In this document: one piece after another, positions 21,404 through 54,040 of the stretch
Position numbering within the stretch: the first letter of the stretch is position 1
Layout of the letters: every line of letters begins with the position of its first letter
NCBI RefSeq assembly: GCF_024138165.1
Contig: NZ_CP100000.1
Span: 1,550,001-1,614,000 of the forward strand
DNA: 64,000 nucleotides
Direction of reading: 5' to 3'
Source: Halorussus vallis
Lineage (GTDB): Archaea > Halobacteriota > Halobacteria > Halobacteriales > Haladaptataceae
The notes under the pieces: generated by a model
The model's database searches: none
What the model was told of the DNA's origin: nothing
Seen by the model: only the letters and a program-made list of their open reading frames with translations
Translations under genes and position numbers: made by a program

Positions 21404-21565
21404 CCGGACGCGCGCGAATTCACCACGTGACGGAAGCGCTCGGTGACATGTACCACGGGAAGCGCCCGGTGACGCGAACCCCCGGAAGCGCTCGGTGAAT
21501 CAACCGGCAGGGTGGTTCTCGTGAGCGGAGCGAACGAGAGCTCGTCGGACCGGAGGTCCGACGGT
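21404..21565 (+). repeat. 26-base tandem array before structured element B1
   Basis: Three units at 21432, 21458 and 21484 start GGAAGCGCYCGGTGA, with an exact 26-base period and about 11 variable bases between cores. The same unit recurs before B2 (24267 and 24293). The array ends at AATCAACCGGCAGGGTGG, which leads towards element B1. The rest of this stretch has small hairpins but no gene. Confidence 0.7.
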
Positions 21566-21700
21566 GGACTGAAAGGGGCCGCCCGCTCGCGCCCGAAGGG
21601 CGTGGTCGTCTCAGCGACCCCTATTCGGCGAGTGCCGCAGGCGCGAGCCGGATATGTCGCTGAGCGACCGCGAGCGGGCGGGGGCTTTCGAGGCGTTCTC
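21566..21700 (+). ncRNA. Structured element, family B, copy 1 (putative RNA or mobile hairpin)
   Basis: It runs from GGACTGAAAGGGGCC to GGGGGCTTTCGAGGCG. The closing stem CGCCCGCTCGCG (21580-21591) pairs exactly with 21669-21680. An inner stem pairs GGTCGTCTCAGCGAC with GTCGCTGAGCGACC, and an apical part ATTCGGC...GCCGGAT follows. Compared with copy B3 the apical stem changes C-G to T-A while still pairing. No ORF is conserved. Whether it is transcribed is unknown. Confidence 0.65.
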
Positions 21701-21819
21701 CTCTCCGTTGTCGCTAATATCGGTCAAAGCGGTCACCGTCGTTCTACCGTTCCCGTCGTAGACGCCACGGTGGTTAGGTGAACGAGAAGGAGGTGCCAGA
21801 CAAACCCGATTTCGCCGGA

Positions 21820-23340
21820 CTACCCCCGGTGAACCACGGCGACGTCGCACTCCAAATCCTGGAGACGCTCGAACGTCGGCGGAGAGATGAACCGCGAGGC
21901 GGTCGAGCGGTCGGTGCTCGCGCCCATCACCACGAGGTCGTAGTGGGCGTCGTTGGCCGCGAGGAACGACTCGATGGACGACCGCGAAACCCGGGTTTCG
22001 AACGACCCTTCGAACGCCTCGACGAGGTCGGCCAGCGTCGCCTCGGCCGACCGCCGCTCGTTCTCGCGGTCGATGCAGGTGCAGACGCTGACGCTGCCCG
22101 AGAGGCCGGTGAGTCGCCGCGCGAAGTCTATCATCGCGTGGGCGGTGTCGCCCGGCCGGGCGATGGGCACGAGGACCCGTTTCCAGCGCGAACGAAACGC
22201 GGTCTCGGACGCCGACCGGAACGCGATGGTGTCGATGCGCCCCTGGAACAGTCGCCTGACGAACGGCGACAGCGAACCGTGTCGCTCCTCGTAGGGCGTC
22301 ACGACGAGGTCGCAGTTGGTCTCGCGGGCCGTCCTGATGACGGTCGCGGCCGGATTCGCGCCGTCGCCGGCGACCACCACCTCGCAGGGGACGCCGATTC
22401 GGGTCTTGATGCGGTTGGCCTCGGCTTCGAGTCGCTGGGCCGACTCGTCGGCGACCTGGACCTCCTCGACCTCCGCACCCTCGGCCTCGGCCGCATCGGC
22501 GTCGACGAATTCCGTCCTCTCGACCGCCCGCGGGTCGGGGTCGACGTCGCCGGCCTCCTCGGCGGCCGCGACGCTCTCCTCGTCCACCACGTCGAGGAGG
22601 ACGACCTTCCCCGCGTCGTGGGCGGCCGCGAGTCGCGCGCCGAAGGTCGCCGCCGCGGTCGAGGCGTCGCCCCGCATCGGCACCAGCACGTGGTCGTCGC
22701 CCCGCGTCGACTGGTAGAGGTACTTCGAGCGACGCTCGTAGAACCGGTCACGCCAGAGGTGGAACGCGCCCGCGACGATGCTGCTGGCGAAGAAGACCGA
22801 CCCGACGTAGTCGAGGAAGAACTCGGCGATGTCCGTCGGGCCGGTGAACGCCGGCGCGATGAGCGCCAGCAGCGCGGTCGAGAACGCCGATGGCTCCTCG
22901 TAGTCGAGCGCCCACGTGACCCCGCCGGTCAGGAAGATGGCGAGCGCGGCCTCGACCGGCGAGACCTTCAGCACGCCGGCGCCCATCGGGTCGCGCAGCG
23001 ACGTGTGCATCCCCAGCCAGATGGCCGCCGTCCCGCAGACCGCCCCGGCGGTGAGGCCTCCGACGAACTTGGTCGGCGAGGCGTACTTGCCCTCGGGGTC
23101 GGCGAACAGCGTGTAGGTGCCCGACGCCAGCGGCGGGAAGAGGACGAACGGAAGGACCTCCTCGGAGTTCGCGATGGCGGTGACGAGCGCGATGAGCAGC
23201 GGCACGAACAACAGAATCGTCAGGTGAATGAGGTTGGTCGTGTGCTCTATCCAGCGACGGAACTCGGCGACCTCGCGTCGTTCGAACCGACGCACGCGCC
23301 GCAGAAGAGCGTGGTAGCGCGTACGCAGGCCGTCGAACAT
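21820..23340 (-). CDS. HPP family membrane protein fused to two universal stress protein domains
   Basis: A 506-residue protein. The HPP-type membrane domain (about residues 25-185, roughly six helices, e.g. LTILLFVPLLIALVTAIANS and the FPPLASGTYTLF motif) is followed by two UspA-like domains (about 205-365 and 370-506). The second holds VLVPIARPGDTAHAMIDFA and DLVVMGAS. HPP proteins have been linked to nitrite transport, USPs to nucleotide sensing, so a regulated transporter is plausible. ATG at 23340 is preferred to TTG at 23349. The gene sits between structured elements B1 and B2. Confidence 0.88.
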   Translation of the reverse strand: MFDGLRTRYHALLRRVRRFERREVAEFRRWIEHTTNLIHLTILLFVPLLIALVTAIANSEEVLPFVLFPPLASGTYTLFADPEGKYASPTKFVGGLTAGAVCGTAAIWLGMHTSLRDPMGAGVLKVSPVEAALAIFLTGGVTWALDYEEPSAFSTALLALIAPAFTGPTDIAEFFLDYVGSVFFASSIVAGAFHLWRDRFYERRSKYLYQSTRGDDHVLVPMRGDASTAAATFGARLAAAHDAGKVVLLDVVDEESVAAAEEAGDVDPDPRAVERTEFVDADAAEAEGAEVEEVQVADESAQRLEAEANRIKTRIGVPCEVVVAGDGANPAATVIRTARETNCDLVVTPYEERHGSLSPFVRRLFQGRIDTIAFRSASETAFRSRWKRVLVPIARPGDTAHAMIDFARRLTGLSGSVSVCTCIDRENERRSAEATLADLVEAFEGSFETRVSRSSIESFLAANDAHYDLVVMGASTDRSTASRFISPPTFERLQDLECDVAVVHRG

Positions 23341-23442
23341 AACCGACAAATCGGCCGCGGGAAGGTAAATGTCTGCCGGCCTGAGGGGACGACGGCGGCG
23401 TCTCCCGGTCGGCGGAACGTTCGACCGCGGAGCTTTCGGTCG

Positions 23443-24174
23443 CTACTCCGCCAGCGAGCCCACCGCGTCGAGGCTGATTCGAATCGCGCGCTCGACGTTG
23501 TCCTTGGCCTTCTCGGGGAGTTCGTCGTCCTCGGTTTCGCCCTTCTGGGTGCCCTCGACGAGATTGCCGTCGACGGTGCAGATGGCCCCCGCGCGCATGC
23601 CCTTGCGCCGCGCGAGCGAGAACACCGCGGCAGCCTCCATCTCGACCGAGAGGATGTTGGCAGCCTCCCAGTCCTCGACGTACTCGTCGGTTTCGGCGTA
23701 GAAAGCGTCGTCGCTGGCGATGGGGCCGACGTGGACCGACTCGTCGTTCGCTTCCGAGGAGTCCACGAGCGCGGTCAGCACGTCGTACTCGGGCACCGCG
23801 GGGTACTCGACGGCCTCGTAGCGCTTGCTCGTCCCCTCGTTCTTCGCCGCGCCGGTGGCGACGATCATGTCGCCGATCTCGATGCCCGACTGGAGCGCGC
23901 CGGTCGTCCCGACCCGGATGACGGTTTCGACGCCGACGGCGTGGAGTTCCTCGACCGCGATGGCGGCGGAGGGACAGCCGATGCCGGTCGAGCAGATGGT
24001 GAGGTCGACGCCCTCGTACTCGGCGTTGACGACCTTGTACTCGCGGTTCTCGGAGACGACCGTCGAGTCGTCGCAGAGGCCCGCGATGCGGTCGACGCGG
24101 CCGGGGTCGCCGGGGATGAGCGCGATGTCGTTCACGTCGCCCGGTTCGACGAGGAGGTGGGGCTGTTTCGCCAT
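23443..24174 (-). CDS. udp: Uridine phosphorylase
   Basis: A 243-residue nucleoside phosphorylase-I family enzyme cleaving uridine with phosphate to uracil and ribose-1-phosphate. Visible motifs are IPGDPGRVDRIA (phosphate binding, about residue 20), VIRVGTTGALQ (about 85) and SVEMEAAAVFSLA (about 173, ribose-binding Glu/Met/Glu). In haloarchaea the ribose-1-phosphate is thought to enter the pentose-bisphosphate pathway; the R15P isomerase at 49147 and the PfkB kinase at 25826 would act next. Confidence 0.93.
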   Translation of the reverse strand: MAKQPHLLVEPGDVNDIALIPGDPGRVDRIAGLCDDSTVVSENREYKVVNAEYEGVDLTICSTGIGCPSAAIAVEELHAVGVETVIRVGTTGALQSGIEIGDMIVATGAAKNEGTSKRYEAVEYPAVPEYDVLTALVDSSEANDESVHVGPIASDDAFYAETDEYVEDWEAANILSVEMEAAAVFSLARRKGMRAGAICTVDGNLVEGTQKGETEDDELPEKAKDNVERAIRISLDAVGSLAE

Positions 24175-24266
24175 GGGCGTGGCTTCTCGGGAGCGGGAGA
24201 AAAAGCGTACGGGTTCGCGGCCGACGCGCGGGGTTCGGAGGTTGGTCGCGCGGTGACTCGGCCGGC

Positions 24267-24402
24267 GGAAGCGCTCGACGACACCAACCACCGGAAGCGC
24301 CCGGCGACACCAACCATCGGGAATCGACCGGTGGAACGGACCACCAGGTATCGGCCGACCGACCATACCCCAAAAGCGCCCGACGACGCTACCGGCGGGG
24401 TG
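24267..24402 (+). repeat. 26-base tandem array before structured element B2
   Basis: GGAAGCGCTCGACGA (24267) and GGAAGCGCCCGGCGA (24293) lie exactly 26 bases apart. More degenerate units follow near 24319, 24347 and 24371. The array runs into ACCGGCGGGGTGGGACTGAAAG, the start of B2. Confidence 0.7.
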
Positions 24403-24525
24403 GGACTGAAAGGGGCCGCGCGCTGGACGAACCCCGGCGACGTAAGCACTGGAGTGAGCGCCGGAGGCGCGAACGAAGCGCGCAGCGAGCCGCGGGAGTC
24501 CAGCGCGCGGGGGCTTTCGAGGCTG
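24403..24525 (+). ncRNA. Structured element, family B, copy 2
   Basis: It keeps the boundaries GGACTGAAAGGGGCC and GGGGGCTTTCGAGGCT. The closing stem is a different sequence that still pairs perfectly: CGCGCGCTGGAC (24417-24428) with its complement at 24498-24509. The inner stems of B1 and B3 are replaced, but an apical GTGAGCGCCGGAGGCGCGAACG resembles that of B3. No ORF is visible. Confidence 0.65.
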
Positions 24526-24631
24526 TCTTCGACGGCGAGCAGTCGGAGACTCCCTGAACCCTCAGAACACCGGCCGTGAGTCACGTTATATACGCAAACG
24601 ACTTCTCACCGCACTAACGCCTCTCGCACGC

Positions 24632-24772
24632 ATGAGCCACTGTCCCGACTGCGGCGAGGAGGGAGAGAAACTGGTCGAGAGCGACGCCTCGGCCGGCGGA
24701 TTCCTGAGTTCGCGACACGTCTGGGACTGCCCGCACTGCGGCGCGATTCTCGGCGTGAGCGGGCACATCTAG
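24632..24772 (+). CDS. Zinc-finger microprotein (46 aa)
   Basis: A 46-residue protein starting MSHCPDCGEEGEKL and containing CPHCGAILGVSGHI, so two CxxC knuckles form one zinc site. Small zinc-finger proteins of this size are common in haloarchaea and several have been linked to stress or biofilm behaviour; this one has no assigned role. TTATATAC at 24585-24592 is a candidate TATA box, giving a short 5' leader. Its stop overlaps the stop of the convergent regulator gene by four bases. Confidence 0.75.
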   Translation: MSHCPDCGEEGEKLVESDASAGGFLSSRHVWDCPHCGAILGVSGHI

Positions 24773-25140
24773 GCGTATCGGTCGAGGGCGTCCCACTCGG
24801 TGCGGATGAGTTCGCCGATGCCGTGTTTCATCACGGCTTCGCCGAGCGAGGTGGCGACGTAGTAGGAGTACAGACCGTCGGCTCCGCGCTCCTTCTGCAA
24901 GCGATTGCCGACGACGCCGACGTCGACTAGCTTATCGAGGTGGTAGTGGAGCTTGTTCGAGGGTAAATCCAGCGCCTCCGAAAGCTCCGTGGCGCTCATC
25001 TCGCCCTCGCGCAGCAGTTCCGCGACGATGCGGTAGCGCGTCTCCTCGCTGACCGCCCGCTGCATGGCGAGGTAGTCTTCGAGTTCGAGGATGCTCTCCT
25101 CGGGGAGCTTCGGGGGTTCGTAGCGTTCTGCTTTGGCCAT
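24769..25140 (-). CDS. ArsR-like winged-helix transcriptional regulator
   Basis: A 123-residue DNA-binding protein. The winged helix covers about residues 25-90, with SEETRYRIVAELLREGEMSA then the recognition helix LPSNKLHYHLDKLVDVGVV. The C-terminal part, GLYSYYVATSLGEAVMKHGI, is typical of haloarchaeal ArsR-like regulators. A perfect 9-bp inverted repeat at 25171-25189 sits 30 bases before the ATG, suggesting autoregulation. ATG at 25140 is chosen over the in-frame start at 25239 because that extension spans the palindrome and is not protein-like. Confidence 0.85.
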   Translation of the reverse strand: MAKAERYEPPKLPEESILELEDYLAMQRAVSEETRYRIVAELLREGEMSATELSEALDLPSNKLHYHLDKLVDVGVVGNRLQKERGADGLYSYYVATSLGEAVMKHGIGELIRTEWDALDRYA

Positions 25141-25170
25141 GGTTCGAGGGTGCTCCGCCGGTTCGGTGAC

Positions 25171-25189
25171 GTTAGGAGCCGCTCCTAAC
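25171..25189. promoter_or_regulatory. Operator-like inverted repeat
   Basis: GTTAGGAGC-C-GCTCCTAAC is a perfect 19-bp dyad in the gap between the ArsR-like gene and the divergent gene at 25296. Its position suits autorepression and possibly control of both genes. Confidence 0.6.
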
Positions 25190-25259
25190 CTCGTCGGTAG
25201 TACGTTGGGGAGACGGCGACTTAACGGTTGTTGACTCAACGTTCGCTGAAATGGCCGCT

Positions 25260-25268
25260 ATTTATAAG
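25260..25268 (+). promoter_or_regulatory. TATA-like box of the gene at 25296
   Basis: TTTATAAGT ends 27 bases before the ATG, which supports that start over the in-frame ATG at 25251. Confidence 0.6.
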
Positions 25269-25295
25269 TATGGGCGGTGCGTCGGCCGCGAACGA

Positions 25296-25829
25296 ATGCG
25301 AGAACGGCTCATATACGACCTCGAACCCACCTCCTACAGACGCTTTCTCGTCTACGTCATGGGGCCGTACAAGTCCCACGTGACCGAGGACGAGGAGATG
25401 TACTCGTTCCTCGAACGACTCCGCGACGACCTCCGGGAGGAGGGACTCAACGCCTTCCTCGCGACCGACCCGGAGATTCCGCTGGACGAGATGGACGCCG
25501 GAACCCAGACGCTCGAGTTCGCCCGGGCGAGCAACGTCGTGCTGTTCGTGGTCCCCCGCGAGGGGAAGAACCTCGGCGTCGGCATCGAGGTCGGGGCCGT
25601 CCTCGAAGATATCTCGGACCGGCGGCGCGAACGGATTCTCTTCGTCCACGAGGTCGGAATGCGGAGCGCGATGATCGGCGCCATCGGCGACCGGTGGGAC
25701 GTCGAGCGCCGGACGTTCGACGACGAGGACGGGCTACTGAAGGCGGTGAAACAGTTCGTCGCGGACGTCGTTCGAAAGGAGGACACCGGCGAGCTACCGT
25801 TCCCACCCGGCGAAGAAGGCGACGACTAA
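25296..25829 (+). CDS. Conserved haloarchaeal protein (DUF7509-like), possible deoxyribosyltransferase-like fold
   Basis: A 177-residue soluble protein starting MRERLIYDLEPTSYRRF. The order of motifs, VYVMGPYK, a two-helix region ending LNAFLAT, then ASNVVLFVVPREGKNLGVGI with EVGAVLED, recalls nucleoside 2-deoxyribosyltransferase-like or TIR/SLOG-like folds. I know similar haloarchaeal proteins only as a domain of unknown function. It is divergent from an ArsR-like regulator and overlaps the convergent PfkB gene end by 4 bases. Function unknown. Confidence 0.75.
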   Translation: MRERLIYDLEPTSYRRFLVYVMGPYKSHVTEDEEMYSFLERLRDDLREEGLNAFLATDPEIPLDEMDAGTQTLEFARASNVVLFVVPREGKNLGVGIEVGAVLEDISDRRRERILFVHEVGMRSAMIGAIGDRWDVERRTFDDEDGLLKAVKQFVADVVRKEDTGELPFPPGEEGDD

Positions 25830-26737
25830 CCGAACTGCTCGTCGAGGAACCGGCCCACCTCGTCCCACGTCGGCGCGGTCTGTGCACCCTCTTCCGTGGC
25901 CGCCAGCGCCCCGCAGGCGTTGGCGAACTCCAGCGCACGCTCGTAGTCGGCGTCCGGGCCGAGCACGCCGTCCCGACGCAGCAACACCGCCAGGAACCCG
26001 GCGGCGAAGGCGTCGCCCGCGCCCGTGGTGTCGACGGCTTCGGCGTCGAAGCCGGGATGGCCGAACGAGGCGTTCGGCGTGTCGACCCGCGCACCGTCCT
26101 CGCCGTGCTTGATGACGACGATGCGGCTGTTGAGCTCCGAGGAGGGGTGTTCGAGGTCGCTATCGAGGATGGTCCGGGCCTCGCGATCGTTGAGGAACAC
26201 CACGTCGGCGTACGCCAGCGCCTCGGCGTAGTCGCGCTCGCCGACCCGCCGTCCCGGGTCGAAACTGACGCTCAGGCCGGCCTCGGTCGCGATTCGGGCC
26301 AGCGCCGCCGCGGTTTCGGGTCGCTGGCTGGTGAGGTGGAGGTGGCCCGCGTCGGCGACGTACTCGGGGTCCACGTCGTCGGGCGCGACCGCCTCGTTGG
26401 CGCCCTCGTTGCCCAGCACCATCACCTCCCCCGCCTCGTCGACGATGAGGTACTTCGTCGTGGTTTCGGCGGCCGGGACTTCCAGCAGGTGCGAGCAGTC
26501 GACCCCCGCGGTTTCGAGTTCGCGCCGGGCGAGGTGGCCGGTTTCGTCGTCGCCGACGCTCCCGACGAGGCCGGCGTCGTACTCCAGGCCCGCGAGCGCC
26601 ACGGCGACGTTGGCGGCGCTTCCGCCGCCCGAGCGGCGCTGGGAGTCGATTCGGGCCTCGCCGTCGGGCCGGGGAAGGGCGTCGACGCGGAGGGTCACGT
26701 CCCAGTTGACGTGGCCGGCGGTGATTACCTCGACCAT
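25826..26737 (-). CDS. PfkB family carbohydrate kinase
   Basis: A 303-residue ribokinase-fold enzyme that phosphorylates a sugar or nucleoside. The N-terminal substrate region GSAANVAVALAGLEYDAGLV (about residue 38) and the C-terminal ATP/anion-hole motif DTTGAGDAFAAGFL (about 237, catalytic Asp in GAGD) are intact. Candidate substrates include ribose, ribose-1-phosphate, a nucleoside or KDG. The presence of udp and R15P isomerase makes ribose-1-phosphate attractive, but this is inference. ATG at 26737 starts MVEVITAGHVNWD, a normal family start. Confidence 0.9.
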   Translation of the reverse strand: MVEVITAGHVNWDVTLRVDALPRPDGEARIDSQRRSGGGSAANVAVALAGLEYDAGLVGSVGDDETGHLARRELETAGVDCSHLLEVPAAETTTKYLIVDEAGEVMVLGNEGANEAVAPDDVDPEYVADAGHLHLTSQRPETAAALARIATEAGLSVSFDPGRRVGERDYAEALAYADVVFLNDREARTILDSDLEHPSSELNSRIVVIKHGEDGARVDTPNASFGHPGFDAEAVDTTGAGDAFAAGFLAVLLRRDGVLGPDADYERALEFANACGALAATEEGAQTAPTWDEVGRFLDEQFG

Positions 26738-26879
26738 GGTTGACGACGGGGAGGGCGGTTGACGAACAACATACCGCCTCGATACGAACCCGGCCGTCAA
26801 AACGCTTGGGCCGTCGGAGAAAGAGACGCGGTATCGGGGGCGCGGGATGCGCCAGCGAGAGGTGCGCCGGGGAAGCCCG

Positions 26880-27686
26880 TCAGCCCGCGAGCGCGAACAG
26901 CAGGAGGTTGTGGACGCCCGGACCGAGTCCGACGGCCGCGACGCCGCCGAGCAGGAGGTAGCCCTGCGTCGGGTCCTCGGCCACGAGGTCGGCGAACAGC
27001 ACGACGACCACCTCGGCGATGGCGAGTTTCACGAGGACGAACAGCCACCCGACGCCGATGAGGTCGGCGGTCGGCAGGCCCGCCGCGACTTCGAGGACGA
27101 CCCGCGAGACGGGCGTCCGCTCGCCGAAGCCCAGCAGGTCGACGCCGACTGCGGTCGAGACGGCGTCGAGCGCGTGGCCGAACAGCGCGAGCGCGCCGAC
27201 CGCACCGGTGGTGGCGGCCACGCGGGGGTAGGTCGCACGCGTCGCGGCCCAGAGCGCCGCGGTCAGGCCGACGGCGACGACGAGGCCGACCAGCGGCCAG
27301 AACACGAGCAGTCCGCCGCTCGCGCCGCGAGCGAGCGCGTAACCCACGACGGCGAGCGCGGCGACGGTGCCCGTCGCCGCGACGGTCCGCTCGACGCCGG
27401 TTTCGGCGGCCTCGGCGACGAGCCAGACGGCTCCGGCGACGACGAACGTCGTGAGATACACCGACGGCGTGCCCAGCAGCGGCGCGATGGCCGCGGGTGC
27501 CCACTCGACCACGTAGAGGACGTGGAGGCTCGACCCGACCGGCACCCAGGGGACGAGCGCGAGGACGGTCCGGTCGGTGACGGTGGGGTTCGACCGAACT
27601 AGCGCCCACCCGACCAGCGCCACCGCCGCGAGCAGCGGAAGCAGGTAGCGTAACGGCGGGAGAGCGAACCCCTCTGGCAGTACCAT
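26880..27686 (-). CDS. DUF63 family membrane protein
   Basis: A 268-residue integral membrane protein with about seven to eight helices and no soluble domain. The pattern, starting PPLRYLLPLLAAVALVGWAL, matches the archaeal DUF63 family, whose role is unknown. The last helices (AKL-type: LFVLVKLAIAEVVVVLFADL) are typical. It lies 142 bases upstream of the PfkB gene on the same strand and may share transcription. Confidence 0.82.
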   Translation of the reverse strand: MVLPEGFALPPLRYLLPLLAAVALVGWALVRSNPTVTDRTVLALVPWVPVGSSLHVLYVVEWAPAAIAPLLGTPSVYLTTFVVAGAVWLVAEAAETGVERTVAATGTVAALAVVGYALARGASGGLLVFWPLVGLVVAVGLTAALWAATRATYPRVAATTGAVGALALFGHALDAVSTAVGVDLLGFGERTPVSRVVLEVAAGLPTADLIGVGWLFVLVKLAIAEVVVVLFADLVAEDPTQGYLLLGGVAAVGLGPGVHNLLLFALAG

Positions 27687-27878
27687 GCCGGAAACGGCGG
27701 AGCGCGGGGCCGAAAGGCTTGCGGTCGCGCTCGAAGCGTCGAATTCGGTCCGGTCCGACCGCGGAATCGGAGTGCGGGCGACCGACGTGCCGGCGACCGA
27801 CGACCGTAGTCGTCGGACGTCGGACGTCTCGCGACTCGTTTCACCAGCGACGGCAGAAAGAAACGTGACCGAGCGCCT

Positions 27879-28133
27879 CTACGCGTTGTTCATCCGCTGT
27901 TGGGTGGTTTCGCCGCAGACCCGACACTCGGTGACGCGGTACGGTTCGCGCGAGAACGCGGCGTTCTCTCGCTTCTGACTCTCGGTGAGTATCTCGATGG
28001 AGACGATGTGGGGCGTCTCCTCGCCGCAGGCCTCGCAGGCCTCGAGGACGCTGTCGGGGTCCTCGACGGGGTCGGCCGCGTCGACCGGGTCGGACGCTGC
28101 TTCGCGCCCGCCGAAGTGCTCGGGGTGACTCAT
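27879..28133 (-). CDS. Zinc-ribbon protein (DUF7835-like), paralogue 1
   Basis: An 84-residue protein with a beta zinc ribbon: CEACGEETPH and later CRVCGETTQQRMNNA, giving four cysteines. The last 45 residues are nearly identical to the protein at 63233-63433. The family is haloarchaeal and of unknown function; a nucleic-acid or ribosome-related role is possible for such ribbons. Its ATG overlaps the stop of the gene upstream (ATGA), so the two are translationally coupled. Confidence 0.8.
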   Translation of the reverse strand: MSHPEHFGGREAASDPVDAADPVEDPDSVLEACEACGEETPHIVSIEILTESQKRENAAFSREPYRVTECRVCGETTQQRMNNA

Positions 28134-28435
28134 GCGGACGACACCTCCGGAGCACCGCCGGACCTCGAACGCTCGCCGCCGCCGTCGGGCGGCCCGAACG
28201 TCCGAGACGGGAACTCGTCGTCGAGCAGCAGGACGAACCCGCCGTCCGAGGTCGACTCGGCCTCGTGCTGCGGTTCGCCGTAGAGCGTCTGCTCGGCCGC
28301 ACCGTCGGCCCCGACCGCCTCGTGCTGAGAGTCGCCGTACAGTCGGCGTTCGTCGGACGATTCCTCGTCGGTGACGCCCTGAGGCGTCGAAGCGTTTCTG
28401 ATCATCGGGGAAGGGCATAGTGTACCGACACCCAT
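28130..28435 (-). CDS. Small acidic hypothetical protein with two LYGxxQHEA repeats
   Basis: A 101-residue protein coupled to the zinc-ribbon gene by a 4-base overlap. It holds two copies of a short motif, RLYGDSQHEA and TLYGEPQHEA, and a C-terminal stretch FVLLLDDEFPSRTFGPPDGG. A TATA-like ATTTATA (28462-28468, minus strand) lies about 30 bases before ATG 28435, supporting a leaderless start; ATG 28405 is an alternative. I recognise no family. Confidence 0.6.
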   Translation of the reverse strand: MGVGTLCPSPMIRNASTPQGVTDEESSDERRLYGDSQHEAVGADGAAEQTLYGEPQHEAESTSDGGFVLLLDDEFPSRTFGPPDGGGERSRSGGAPEVSSA

Positions 28436-28596
28436 CACGACACGCCTTTCCTACACAACCCATTTATACGCTTCCGAGGGAAATCGCGTGACTGCGTCGG
28501 GGTGTTCGACCCGGCGAATCCTTCCGGTTCGACGCTCGTTCGCGGAGGCCACCACGCCTAAGAAAACTCGCGCCGTGTCTGTCTCGGGGGAGAACA

Positions 28597-28893
28597 ATGG
28601 CAGACGACGACAGCACGACCACGACCGACCACGACGAGATTCGAGACTGGGTCGAGGAACGAGACGGCAGTCCCGCCCACGTCGAGGGGACCGGGGGTGG
28701 CGACGACCCCGGGATGCTCCGCATCGACTTCCCGGACCAGGGCGACGAGGACGAGGACCTCGAAGACATCGGGTGGGACGAGTTCTTCGAGGCGTTCGAG
28801 GACAACGACCTCGCATTCCTCTACCAGGAGGAGACCAACGACGGCGAGACGAGTTACTTCTGCAAGTTCGTCAGCCGTCAGCAGGCCCAGTAA
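28597..28893 (+). CDS. Conserved hypothetical protein, small acidic
   Basis: A 98-residue protein with a central motif GSPAHVEGTGGG...GMLRIDF and a C-terminal LEDIGWDEFFEAFEDNDLAF followed by LYQEE. Related small proteins occur in bacteria and archaea and are sometimes labelled as branching-enzyme-like on weak grounds. No catalytic residues can be named. The next gene begins 13 bases after its stop, so the two are probably co-transcribed. Confidence 0.75.
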   Translation: MADDDSTTTTDHDEIRDWVEERDGSPAHVEGTGGGDDPGMLRIDFPDQGDEDEDLEDIGWDEFFEAFEDNDLAFLYQEETNDGETSYFCKFVSRQQAQ

Positions 28894-28905
28894 CCGCCCG
28901 CTTTT

Positions 28906-30237
28906 ATGGCGACCCACGACCGAGCGACGGCCGGAACCGGGGGTATCGAACGCGCCGCCGACGCCATCGACGAACGCGCCGAACCGCTCGACGAGGACGC
29001 GGTGTCGCGCATCGCCGACGAACTCGAAGACGAGTCGTTCGTGCTGTTCGGCGAGGCCAGCCACGGCACTTCGGAGTACTACCGCTGGCGCGCCAGGCTC
29101 ACCGCCGAACTCGTCGAGCGCGGTGAAGCCTCGTTCGTCGCGGTCGAGGGCGACTGGACCGACTGCTACGAGGTGAACCGCTGGATCCGAGGGAATCGGA
29201 CGGACGAGAACGCCTCGGACGTGCTCGGCGAGTTCGACCGATGGCCCACCTGGATGTGGGCCAACTGGGAGGTCGCGGCGCTGGTCGAACGCCTCCGGGC
29301 GTACAACCGCGACAGACCCGCCGAGGAGGAAGTCGGCTTCTACGGCCTCGACGTCTACAGCCTGTTCGAGTCGATGGAGGCCGTGATAGCGTTCCTCGAA
29401 GACTTCGACCCGGAGGCCGCCGAGCGCGCCCGGGACGCCTACCGGTGTTTCGAACCGTACGGGGAGGACGCCCGGGAGTACGGCCGGTCGACCCGCATCG
29501 TCCCGGACGACTGCGAGGACGAGGTGATCGAGATCCGGGCCGAACTCCGCCGGGACTTCGAGGACGCGAGCGACGACGCCGAGTCCGAGGACCGCTTCGC
29601 CGCCGAACAGAACGCGCTGGTCGCGAAGAACGCCGAGGAGTACTATCGGACGATGGTCCGGGGGAGCGACGAGTCGTGGAACGTCCGGGACCGCCACATG
29701 GCCGAGACCCTCGACCGCCTCGCCGAGCGCAACGACGTCGCGGGCGACGGCGGCACCGCCATCGTCTGGGCGCACAACACCCACGTCGGCGACGCCCGCG
29801 CGACCGACATGCCCGACCGCGGGCGACTCAACCTCGGCCAACTCGTCCGCGAACGCCACGGCGACGAGGACACCGCCATCGTCGGCTTCGGCACCCACCG
29901 CGGGTCGGTCATCGCCGCCAACTCGTGGGGCGCCGACCACGAGGAGATGCGCGTCCCGGAAGCCCGCGAGGGGAGCGTCGGCGACGTCTTCCACCGGGGG
30001 CGCGGCGAGGACTGCTGGCTCGTCGACACCGACGACCCGGCGCTCAGAGAGCGCCGGGGCCACCGGGCCATCGGCGTGGTCTACGACCCCGAGCGCGAGA
30101 GCTTCAACTATGTGCCGACGAACCTCGCCGAGCGCTACGACCTGTTCGTCCACGTCGAGGAGTCGACCGCGCTCCACCCGCTCCACCCCGAACCGGAGAT
30201 GCGAGAGAGCCCCGACCTGTACCCGTGGGGCGTGTGA
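28906..30237 (+). CDS. Erythromycin esterase family protein
   Basis: A 443-residue hydrolase of the erythromycin esterase/succinoglycan-biosynthesis-like family. The conserved Glu and His motifs are present: FGEASHGTSEYYRWR (about residue 48), VEGDWTDCYEVNRW, and VWAHNTHVGDA (about 289). Family members hydrolyse lactone rings or act as esterases; in haloarchaea the physiological substrate is not known. No signal peptide is seen, so it is cytosolic. A 13-bp inverted repeat follows the stop. Confidence 0.9.
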   Translation: MATHDRATAGTGGIERAADAIDERAEPLDEDAVSRIADELEDESFVLFGEASHGTSEYYRWRARLTAELVERGEASFVAVEGDWTDCYEVNRWIRGNRTDENASDVLGEFDRWPTWMWANWEVAALVERLRAYNRDRPAEEEVGFYGLDVYSLFESMEAVIAFLEDFDPEAAERARDAYRCFEPYGEDAREYGRSTRIVPDDCEDEVIEIRAELRRDFEDASDDAESEDRFAAEQNALVAKNAEEYYRTMVRGSDESWNVRDRHMAETLDRLAERNDVAGDGGTAIVWAHNTHVGDARATDMPDRGRLNLGQLVRERHGDEDTAIVGFGTHRGSVIAANSWGADHEEMRVPEAREGSVGDVFHRGRGEDCWLVDTDDPALRERRGHRAIGVVYDPERESFNYVPTNLAERYDLFVHVEESTALHPLHPEPEMRESPDLYPWGV

Positions 30238-30242
30238 AGGGT

Positions 30243-30290
30243 TCGGACGACGGGCGCTCCTCGCACCGTCGATAGCTGCCCGTCGTCCGA
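30243..30290. terminator. Inverted repeat after the esterase gene
   Basis: TCGGACGACGGGC at 30243-30255 pairs exactly with 30278-30290 across a 22-base loop, starting six bases after the stop codon. A 3'-end hairpin is plausible; there is no T tract. Confidence 0.45.
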
Positions 30291-30341
30291 CGTTCTCCGG
30301 AACTGACCGTCGAACTACGGTCCTGCCTCACGCGACTCCGC

Positions 30342-30656
30342 TCACTCCCGCTCGGAGATGCGGACGCGGTCGGTCCCCTGCACGTTCACCCTGTACGATT
30401 CGTAAGCGAAGGCGACAGAGCACCGGCCGTTTCGCGGCGTATCGTCTTCGCAAGGGGCAAAGAGTGCGTCCAGAGCGTCCGGACTGACGACGGTGTAGAG
30501 CGGGGTGAGTTCCGTGACTTCGGCCCCCGAAACCACTCCGACGGCGGTCGGAATCGCCTCGGAAACCGACTCGTCGTCGTCGATTTCGTAGACCAACTCA
30601 CCGCTGTCGCCGTTGTTCCTCATCTCGCGCACGATTTCGGTTTTTCCTCGTATCAT
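30342..30656 (-). CDS. HalOD1 output domain protein
   Basis: A 104-residue single-domain protein of the HalOD1 family, a haloarchaeal module often found after receiver or sensor domains. The core runs from LVYEIDDDESVSEAIPTAV through LTPLYTVVSPDALDALFAP and ends with VQGTDRVRISERE. It is thought to act in signalling output; the partner is unknown. ATG at 30656 is preferred to GTG at 30662. The neighbouring Bat-like regulator is divergent in function but on the same strand upstream. Confidence 0.85.
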   Translation of the reverse strand: MIRGKTEIVREMRNNGDSGELVYEIDDDESVSEAIPTAVGVVSGAEVTELTPLYTVVSPDALDALFAPCEDDTPRNGRCSVAFAYESYRVNVQGTDRVRISERE

Positions 30657-30777
30657 AGTCACACTGAAGCGGCTACCACACGCTACGGAGTGGACCGGAA
30701 AGGGTTCGGTGTGGTCGTGCTCCCACCGTTTATGGTCTCCACCGTCTCCCGAAGTCGCCCGATTCGGTCGCGAACGG

Positions 30778-31449
30778 CTACACCCGGTGCTCCTCGTCGT
30801 GGACGAGCGTGCGCGAGAGGAGATTGTGTTGCCCGCGTCGAAGGCGAGCGGACAACGCGTTCCGAGAGATTCCGAGTTCGTCCGCCAGTTCGGTCAGCGT
30901 TACGTCTCGCGGGACGCGGAAGTAGTCCGCTTCGAACGCAGCCACTAACGCTTCCTGCTGCTCTTCCGTGACCCCGTACTCGGCCTCCTCCTGCGGATTC
31001 TCGGAGTGGTAGATGCGTTCGACTTCGAACTGAATTCCGTTCTCCGCGCAGAAGTCGTGAAATGCGGACAGCGCGTCCTGGTCCGGGAACAGGATTTTGA
31101 GCCTCCACTTCGAGCCGTCGTCGCGGACGGCTTCGAGAATCGTCGCCTTGGCCTCCGAAAGCGCCGAGAGGAGGTCCGGAGGGTTCGACTTCCACGCCAC
31201 GCGGTAGAATCGCTCGTCCCCCTGGCCGTCTTTGAGGGTGAGTACCTCTTGAATCGTCGAATCGCCGCGAATCGCCTGTTCGAACGCGGCGAAATCTCCA
31301 CCGCTCGCCCAGAAGTACGGAGTGACGCGCTCTTCGCCCGCGACGACCCGCTGGATTTCGATGTGCATGTCCGGCACGGCGGTTAGAGTGTCCGCCAAGA
31401 CGAACTCGTCCGCCGGGAAGACGAACTCTGCCAAAACGCTTATTCGCAA
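30778..31449 (-). CDS. Bat-like helix-turn-helix (HTH-10) regulator
   Basis: A protein of about 223 residues related to bacterio-opsin activator Bat. The N-terminal sensory part (ISVLAEFVFPADEFVLADTL) is followed by a C-terminal HTH-10 domain, with the recognition region TLTELADELGISRNALSARL near the end. Homologues normally start MSVxAEF; here the matching codon is ATA (31441-31443). The TTG at 31447-31449, two codons earlier, is used as the likely start. An in-frame ATG at 31530 would give 27 extra residues that do not look conserved. Target genes unknown. Confidence 0.8.
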   Translation of the reverse strand: MRISVLAEFVFPADEFVLADTLTAVPDMHIEIQRVVAGEERVTPYFWASGGDFAAFEQAIRGDSTIQEVLTLKDGQGDERFYRVAWKSNPPDLLSALSEAKATILEAVRDDGSKWRLKILFPDQDALSAFHDFCAENGIQFEVERIYHSENPQEEAEYGVTEEQQEALVAAFEADYFRVPRDVTLTELADELGISRNALSARLRRGQHNLLSRTLVHDEEHRV

Positions 31450-31758
31450 ATCTCCACCCCCGCGATACGGTACGCGGGCGTAAGTACGTCGGGCCTGCGC
31501 TCGATTCCATCGACAGATTTCGCCTCGCATCGAACGCAGGACTTCCACCAGACGACCGAACGGTCGGGTCGGCAGCTATCGTAACGAGAGGCGGCACGGG
31601 AAAACGACGGTGGCCTCTCGCCGCCGCGCAAGCACGGCGCTCGGCGTCGTCTCGCCGTGCCCACCGCCGGGGCGATGCGACGCGACGCGGTTCGCCGCCG
31701 AGTCCGCGTACCGGACGGCGATAGCCGTATCGAGGTCGCCGCCTCCCCCGTTCCGCCG

Positions 31759-32511
31759 CTACGTTACCGTGTCCGTGTTGTACTCGTTCTGGTCGCGGCC
31801 GACGCGGTCGTCGCCGTCGGCCTCGACCAGCGACGTGGCGTAGTACGACCCGTCCTTGGGGACGTCCACGTCGATTTCGATGCGGCGCTGTTCGCCGGCC
31901 TCGATTTCGACCGGCGGCCCGCTGGCCGACCCCAGGTCGTCGCCGTGCTCGTCGTAGATGGTGACGACCGGCGCGACCGTGCGGTCGTCGCCGCCGTTCG
32001 CGACCGTCACCGTCACGGTGACCTCGCCGACCGGCAGAATCCGGTCCTGGGCGACCTGCCGACCGTCGTCGGCGTCGCTCGATTGGGCCGCGTTCCCTCG
32101 ACGGCCGCTCCGGGCTTCGGTGCTCGACGCTTCCCCGCCGTCGGCGTCCGAAGTTTCGGGGTCGTTCGACGCCGCCGCGGCCTCGCGCTCGGCCCGGTCG
32201 CGAGCGGTCGACTCGACCACCGCGAGCCCCGACGCGGTCTCGTCGAGCGAGTCGCGGTAGATGTGGATTCGATTTCGGGCCGCGGCGATTCGGCGCGAGG
32301 CGTCGCCGTCGGTGCGCTCTTCGAGTCGAAGGAGCTGGTTGTCTATCTCGTCCAGCACCCCCTCGCTGTCCGAGCCAGCCCGGTCCCGCTCGGCGAACGC
32401 GTCGAGTCGGTCCCGAATCGTCTCGAACTCGTCGTTCAGGTCGTCGCCGGTACTCTCCCTGGCGGCGTCGAGGTCGTCTCTGATATCGATTACTGGCGGT
32501 AGCGATGACAT
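31759..32511 (-). CDS. Haloarchaeal protein with helical N-terminal domain (DUF7553-like) and beta C-terminal domain
   Basis: A 250-residue protein. Residues 1-105 are helical and charged (DIRDDLDAARESTGDDLNDE and NQLLRLEERTDGDASRRI). Residues about 110-155 are an acidic linker. Residues 155-250 form a beta-rich CARDB/FN3-like domain (VTVTVANGGDDRTVAPVVTI). The helical part resembles a haloarchaeal domain of unknown function. There is no signal peptide. A role in protein interaction is possible, not shown. Confidence 0.7.
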   Translation of the reverse strand: MSSLPPVIDIRDDLDAARESTGDDLNDEFETIRDRLDAFAERDRAGSDSEGVLDEIDNQLLRLEERTDGDASRRIAAARNRIHIYRDSLDETASGLAVVESTARDRAEREAAAASNDPETSDADGGEASSTEARSGRRGNAAQSSDADDGRQVAQDRILPVGEVTVTVTVANGGDDRTVAPVVTIYDEHGDDLGSASGPPVEIEAGEQRRIEIDVDVPKDGSYYATSLVEADGDDRVGRDQNEYNTDTVT

Positions 32512-32662
32512 TCTCCCACCCGTTCGAAGTTGTTGCGTCGGGGGCAAGTGTCCTCCGGCTAGGCGAAGGAAACGGGGTCGTTCCGAGTCCCGAAAGTCCC
32601 CATCGACTCACTGTCGAACGCAGTAGTGATATCGAGCGCAGCAACGGCAGTAACTGAGAACA

Positions 32663-32790
32663 CCTCGAAAGCCCCCGGCCGCTCGCGGTCGCTCAGCGAC
32701 ATATTCGGTTCGCACCTCCGGTGCTCACCGAACAGAGGTCGCTGAGGCGACCACGGGCCTGCGGCCCGCGAGCGGCCGGCCCCTTTCAGT
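32663..32790 (-). ncRNA. Structured element, family B, copy 3
   Basis: Read on the minus strand it runs from ACTGAAAGGGGCC to GGGGGCTTTCGAGG like B1 and B2. The closing stem CCGGCCGCTCGCGG (32675-32688) pairs with 32766-32779. An inner stem GGTCGCCTCAGCGAC/GTCGCTGAGCGACC and an apical GTTCGGT...ACCGAAT follow. The B1 equivalents differ in sequence but keep pairing. The upstream side carries only degenerate 26-base units. Confidence 0.65.
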
Positions 32791-32931
32791 CCCACCCCGT
32801 CGGTTGGTTCGCCGGCCGTTCCCGTCGGCTGGTCCGCCTGCCCTCGCGGGTTGACTGGTCGGCTTTCGCCTCGCCGAATCCCGCGTTCCGCCGCCCCAAC
32901 CGCTTTCCGGGGCGCCGTCGTACCGCCACCG

Positions 32932-54019: not shown

Positions 54020-54040
54020 ACGGCCCCTTTCAGTCTCACC
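54020..54040 (-). repeat. Solo left end of structured element family B
   Basis: The minus-strand sequence GGTGAGACTGAAAGGGGCCG matches the family B start. No matching GGGGGCTTTCGAGG end is found within 200 bases, so this is a fragment. Confidence 0.55.

Follow-up and report, generated by a model that had tools for sequence, protein, structure and literature searches.

The 64,000-nucleotide stretch of Halorussus vallis DNA analysed here (contig NZ_CP100000.1, positions 1,550,001 to 1,614,000; hereafter, the window) carries three copies of a hairpin of approximately 120 nt (100–140 nt), which forms the centre of an intergenic unit of approximately 0.4 kb and belongs to what is apparently a large, undescribed, intergenic family that extends across most haloarchaea. 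On balance, we lean towards the view that this family is a non-autonomous mobile element that spreads at the DNA level, the fold of its sense strand being recognised and its copies being homogenised by gene conversion.

Both ends of the hairpin (GGACTGAAAGGGGCC and GGGGGCTTTCGAGG) are exact in the three copies (B1, B2 and B3), as had been claimed in an earlier sequence-only reading of this DNA, which located all three correctly but placed their ends a few bases off. In agreement with that reading, the closing stem differs from copy to copy (CCGCCCGCTCGCG, CCGCGCGCTGGAC and CCGGCCGCTCGCG, respectively) and has a perfect partner in each, and the apical pair changes from TTCGGC/GCCGGA in B1 to TTCGGT/ACCGAA in B3. 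Its assignment of the copies to one family holds for the ends and the architecture, but the inner structure of B2 differs from that of B1 and B3 and represents a second type. The short motifs are only weakly unusual when judged against the window by itself. The copies and their parts are listed below in window coordinates, with RNA folding z-scores and bit scores to a covariance model of the family (R1).

21404..21819, plus strand: whole B1 insertion, 416 bp between two converging genes; empty sites L071, L074 and L075.
21432..21515, plus strand: 5′ arm of B1, three 26-bp units (GGAAGCGCTCGGTGA...) at 21432, 21458 and 21484, with a spacing of exactly 26.
21517..21563, plus strand: nested double-hairpin palindrome of B1 (TTCTCGTGAGCGGAGCGAACGAGAGCTCGTCGGACC..GGTCCGACGG), between the array and the element.
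21566..21693, plus strand: B1 hairpin, type I, with outer stem GAAAG/CTTTC, GGG/GGG loop, 13-bp closing stem and stems B and C; z-score −6.1, 41 bits.
21694..21800, plus strand: 3′ arm of B1, a degenerate unit of approximately 57 bp with CGGTCAC.
24267..24402, plus strand: 5′ arm of B2, 26-bp units at 24267 and 24293 plus degenerate units.
24403..24522, plus strand: B2 hairpin, type II, with core GACGTAAGCACTGGA..GAAGCGCGCAGCGAG; z-score −3.7, 109 bits.
24523..24600 (end approximate), plus strand: 3′ arm of B2, reaching the promoter region of a small gene at 24631; empty sites L066–L068, L070 and L071.
32663..32792, minus strand: B3 hairpin, type I; z-score −8.4, 45 bits.
32793..32890, minus strand: 5′ arm of B3, degenerate 26-bp units, the final one being GGCCGGCGAACCAACCGACGGGGTG.
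32560..32662 (approximate), minus strand: 3′ arm of B3.
54023..54036, minus strand: B4, a truncated copy consisting of the 5′ end alone (AGACTGAAAGGGGC) without the 3′ half.

The fold is conserved well beyond these copies. Copies from many genera (31 of type I and 34 of type II) were aligned with MAFFT on sequence alone, and RNAalifold derived from these alignments consensus folds in which 16 of 39 pairs (type I) and 12 of 26 pairs (type II) are compensatory. Double-changed cells numbered 121 and 110 in the two alignments, compared with 41.5 and 32.6 after shuffling and with far lower numbers in slid controls, and the covariation score likewise exceeded both kinds of control in both types. Among 96 distinct closing stems, 85.9% of pairs are Watson–Crick and 4.5% are G·U, compared with 57.3 ± 1.3% in shuffled and 25–32% Watson–Crick in slid stems. 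The outer stem, which is constant in the aligned Halorussus copies, reads CAAAG/CTTTG, GGAAG/CTTCC, CGAAG/CTTCG or GCAAG/CTTGC in other genera, and unpaired motifs are kept inside the changing stems (that is, the GGG/GGG loop and, in type II, a mismatch in GCACC/GAGGAGC). The hairpin thus has the covarying secondary structure that is sought in a structured non-coding RNA (ncRNA). The closing stems, the alignments and the outer stem between genera all uphold the earlier proposals that stem changes keep pairing and that the element represents a conserved RNA fold or a hairpin DNA substrate, with the qualification that compensation is partly block replacement among copies. Isolated mismatches on the sense strand are more often GT than AC (25 versus 6, p = 0.0009; 16 versus 6 in distinct contexts, p = 0.05) and more often GG than CC (19 versus 2). 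Given that G·T mismatches are tolerated more than A·C, a single strand, the sense strand, would be what folds; we regard this asymmetry, which is compatible with RNA or single-stranded DNA, as moderate evidence.

Model R1, applied to the best 31 candidates per genome (a number that many genomes reached), detected members in 77 of the 117 Halobacteriales genomes examined, representing 34 of 48 genera, so the covariance-model search that the sequence-only reading had proposed returned homologues throughout the order. Because R1 scores B1 and B3 as well as B2, a relationship between the two types is detectable, at least in the ends that they have in common. A strict pattern matched 41 of 293 Halobacteriales genomes and had no match in IMG/VR, on which ground a virus-borne element was rejected; a pattern scan of genome contigs matched 64 stretches, and every titled record among them was haloarchaeal. 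Exact motifs number 0–68 per relative and 0–66 across one genus. Rfam 15 gave no match in the window, only a tRNA in a permissive search of six loci and nothing credible at four plasmid loci, which accords with the earlier remark that no named family was known. Searches by sequence and keyword, in an incomplete coverage of the literature, likewise returned no paper describing these repeats, an abundant family that spans an entire order of archaea.

Across the genome of H. vallis, the pattern GGACTGAAAGGGGC occurs exactly 60 times, compared with 0 for the reversed pattern used as a control; with one mismatch allowed, the counts are 70 and 2. The 69 copies that were read fall into two hairpin types with identical ends. 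In type I (B1 and B3), the closing stem (P2) is followed by stem B and then by stem C, which is closed by CTAT..ATAT; type II (B2), the more widespread subtype, has the core GACGYAAGCACCGCAGG..CCGAGGAGCGCAGCGAG. The outer part of the hairpin is constant (GACTGAAAG/CTTTCGAGG and a GGG/GGG internal loop, across which GAAAG pairs with CTTTC), the closing stem comes next (outer and closing stems together span approximately 18 bp), and the inner stems are variable and nearly always paired. Most copies in this genome have an array of 26-bp units on their 5′ side (the autocorrelation of the 5′ flanks peaks at 26 and 52) and one to three units of approximately 57 bp on their 3′ side, each repeating the motif GGGGGCTTTCGAGGCGGTCAC; neighbouring 3′ motifs in other copies are spaced 54–58 bp in tandem, and arrays bearing the 3′ motif without a hairpin also occur. 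Some copies, in Halorussus and in other genera, have instead an alternative upstream domain with GCGCGAGGGA..GGYTGGGGAGG, which in genome G121 repeats the type II core motif, and long forms in other genera carry one or two extra structured domains upstream.

The occupancy of individual sites varies between species. Three related species have 0–26 bp between the converging genes that flank the 416-bp B1 insertion, and the B2 site is element-free in five relatives. At other sites, as many as four species carry an element, with flanks approximately 80% identical, the orientation the same and the hairpin exchanged but still paired. Changed closing-stem pairs at orthologous sites comprise 39 two-sided, 12 one-sided and 11 broken cases, a count that leaves out two misregistered comparisons. 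Within genomes, copies resemble one another: one closing-stem pair is C–G in nearly all copies of the window's genome (C 49:2 and G 41:1) and G–C in nearly all those of H. amylolyticus (G 14:0 and C 12:1), a difference that holds at orthologous sites too. This homogenisation is concerted evolution, for which gene conversion is the simplest explanation, and copies from the same genome therefore cannot be counted as separate evidence for compensatory selection. Part of the apparent compensation between copies is block replacement, probably through gene conversion within a genome. Caution is warranted, as gene conversion among copies can mimic compensatory evolution.

In the scenario towards which we lean, the feature recognised would be the fold of one single strand (that is, the annotated sense strand), the element would spread at the DNA level through an enzyme acting in trans, and whole hairpins would be swapped and homogenised by gene conversion, through which stems would change in blocks yet stay paired. 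None of 59 related genomes encodes a detectable reverse transcriptase (PF00078), which argues for spread at the DNA level and makes copying through RNA unlikely; a retroelement, group II intron or retron was rejected on this ground. Several observations weigh against such a mobile element. No transposase was identified for it, transposition itself was not observed, and at a flank identity of approximately 80% neither target-site duplications nor the exact ends of the unit are resolvable, while the persistence of some copies at orthologous sites between species so diverged is slow for a mobile element. The covariation counts do not represent independent events, the copies being related. Moreover, the copies, which sit between genes, are not randomly oriented: between tandem genes, 76 are sense and 35 antisense (p = 1.2 × 10⁻⁴), and of 174 cases, 124 have the 3′ end directed at a gene start (gene context was taken from a simple codon-usage gene caller and is approximate, and the copies are related), a bias that could mean a function in cis. 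Compared with miniature inverted-repeat transposable elements, the hairpin does have inverted ends, no transposase was found between orphan end copies, and flank identity is too low for boundaries or duplications to be called. An autonomous parent in which the conserved ends would bracket a transposase was also rejected, as the orphan 3′ motifs proved to be variant 5′ ends (GGATGAAAG), hairpin-less arrays and isolated matches.

The same fold might instead serve a multicopy functional ncRNA, with the sense strand being transcribed (from its own gene or within neighbouring transcripts) into a folded RNA with a cellular role and the copies arising by duplication and conversion. The covariation, the tolerance of G·U on the sense strand, the conserved internal-loop motifs, the favoured sense orientation and the retention, in plasmids of several families, of a diverged copy upstream of an OB-fold gene would all suit such an RNA. 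So would a TATA-like box found in 13 of 22 copies of one genus (genomes G126 and G031; probably Halorubrum, Haloferacaceae), which lies no more than 45 bp upstream of the point where the conserved long form starts and mostly keeps a fixed distance from it. However, no such box was found upstream of 18 sampled long forms of the Halorussus genome or 10 of G121, and TATA-like boxes also occur in the 3′ arms of the TATA-bearing genus, so the upstream boxes may belong to the repeat arms. Autonomous transcription is thus possible in some genera and unsupported in the Halorussus genome. The presence of 0–66 copies within one genus and the empty sites are, in addition, ill-suited to a housekeeping RNA, and we consider this explanation doubtful. 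A tentative possibility that combines both views is a large, undescribed ncRNA gene family moving as DNA. Its long forms, approximately 200–250 nt in length and made up of two or three structured domains, would in some cases have a promoter of their own and would have reached tens of copies per genome in many haloarchaea, their stems drifting freely under a held fold; the copies in the window would then be short forms that correspond to the 3′ domain. In G126, the long forms (L231, L247, L248, L251, L254, L255, L257 and L261) have TTTAAA and, approximately 32 bp on, TTATAA upstream, a recurring pair of TATA-like boxes, and TTTATAA is present in the 3′ arms of copies as well.

Selection on the fold need not be invoked if neutral palindromes are kept complementary by template-switch (quasi-palindrome) correction together with gene conversion. 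Haloarchaea are polyploid and convert readily, and the block changes of stems at orthologous sites and the homogenisation of copies within genomes would fit this explanation. However, such correction would also erase conserved mismatches and internal loops, yet both persist; a strand bias is not expected from it, yet GT outnumbers AC and GG outnumbers CC; and it leaves the order-wide conservation of core and ends unexplained, so we hold it to be improbable. Still less probable, by some distance, is a single-stranded DNA hairpin used as substrate by a Y1/REP-type transposase (as for REP or PATE-like elements). The hairpin with conserved ends, the many intergenic copies, the sense-strand fold and the lack of reverse transcriptase would fit, and haloarchaea are rich in PATEs and IS605 elements (PMC3119063), but the Y1 transposase (PF01797) was undetected in five genomes with 51, 26, 25, 19 and 12 copies (G011, G016, G003, G010 and G018; two of them drafts of 20–80 contigs) and was found in many genomes without copies. 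A REP/RAYT mechanism is therefore unlikely and was rejected, as Y1 does not track copy number and the 5′ end GGACTGAAAGGGGC bears no GTAG/CGTC tag. A site of chromosome organisation or replication polarity, for which many dispersed, oriented copies might speak, is hardly credible given the range of 0–66 copies within one genus and the lack of significant orientation runs along the chromosome (p = 0.20 in the window's genome and p = 0.42 in G006); on these runs tests, a replichore-polarity site was rejected.

Among described systems, the SMRs and PATEs of Haloquadratum are the closest published kind (PMC3119063), as compared by description. SMR-A of Haloquadratum walsbyi is a non-coding repeat of approximately 110 bp with prominent terminal inverted repeats and up to approximately 54 copies that adjoins other palindromes; within an SMR family the sequence is highly conserved, and PATE/IS605 palindromes serve as targets (PMC3119063). 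Our element is likewise haloarchaeal, non-coding and present in many copies, with a size near 110 bp and inverted ends; unlike SMRs, its stems vary by covariation in two subtypes, its family is order-wide, and its hairpin lies inside a unit, bordered by arrays of 26-bp units or by long-form domains, with no recognisable PATE palindromes in the copies read. PATEs are transposase-free and palindromic, have no terminal inverted repeats and show a relationship to IS605-type ends (PMC3119063). They share with our element the absence of a transposase, the palindromic nature and the many haloarchaeal copies, whereas the element has inverted ends and is not tracked by Y1. The REP/BIME-RAYT systems (PMC2817692, PMC3733652) also involve many intergenic palindromes and a likely single-strand fold, REPs being described as 20–40-bp palindromes with a GTAG or CGTC tag (PMC3733652). 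In contrast, the element is approximately 120 nt long and untagged, with variable stems and no correlated Y1. The BOX and ERIC repeats of bacteria are modular intergenic repeats of approximately 100–200 bp that may form an RNA hairpin, with tandem internal units in BOX. The element resembles them in its modularity, in its capacity to form a hairpin and in that a mobility enzyme is not known, but it is unrelated in sequence and taxa, and we know of no covarying core conserved across a whole order in BOX or ERIC. Integron attC sites form cassette arrays with IntI and have RYYYAAC/GTTRRRY boxes; they were set aside because the copies are dispersed singly and have different ends (IntI was not searched for).

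With its hundreds of naturally occurring variants of a single fold, in which loops are conserved and stems are free to change, the family makes single-strand recognition (whether of RNA or of single-stranded DNA, and by which protein) testable. As the copies lie between genes and mostly face gene starts, they may affect regulation, rearrangement and gene conversion in archaeal model organisms.

The diverged plasmid copies lie approximately 460–620 bp upstream of the OB-fold gene and are divergent from it, in matches of several families that include Haloferax mediterranei pHME132. The OB-fold gene occurs on 195 plasmids and several of them lack the element beside it; the gene being general on plasmids, the OB-fold protein was rejected as an obligate partner. 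This gene (RPA/Ssb-like) is preceded by several hundred non-coding bases with strong hairpins, conserved across families (for example, CATTTTAGCCCGG..hairpin..CCCGGAATGGTCGGTCGCGA, in which the hairpin varies by plasmid; L177:2540–3000, L180:2450–2960 and L185–L198) and with no credible Rfam match, possibly an RNA gene or a replication or transfer region.

Head-to-head pairs of the hairpin occur in several genera (L116, L124, L128, L138, L145, L147, L150, L238, L242 and L245), with a short spacer of varying sequence whose edges are mostly CCCACC and GGTGGG or closely similar motifs. The palindrome inserted in B1 recurs 5′ of copies L004, L010, L018, L028 and L055. It exemplifies a set of at least two palindrome families, distinct from the hairpin itself, whose double hairpins (such as TTCTCGTGAGCGGAGCGAACGAGAGCTCGTCGGACC..GGTCCGACGG and TCACGCGAGCGAAGCGAGTGTGA..) lie next to or within elements (window positions 21517–21563; copies L003, L021, L025, L096 and L099). 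On contig C4 of genome G000, two Orc1/Cdc6 matches (30452/151736 and 38322/159604) recur approximately 121 kb apart with identical scores, which suggests a duplicated plasmid or an assembly duplication.

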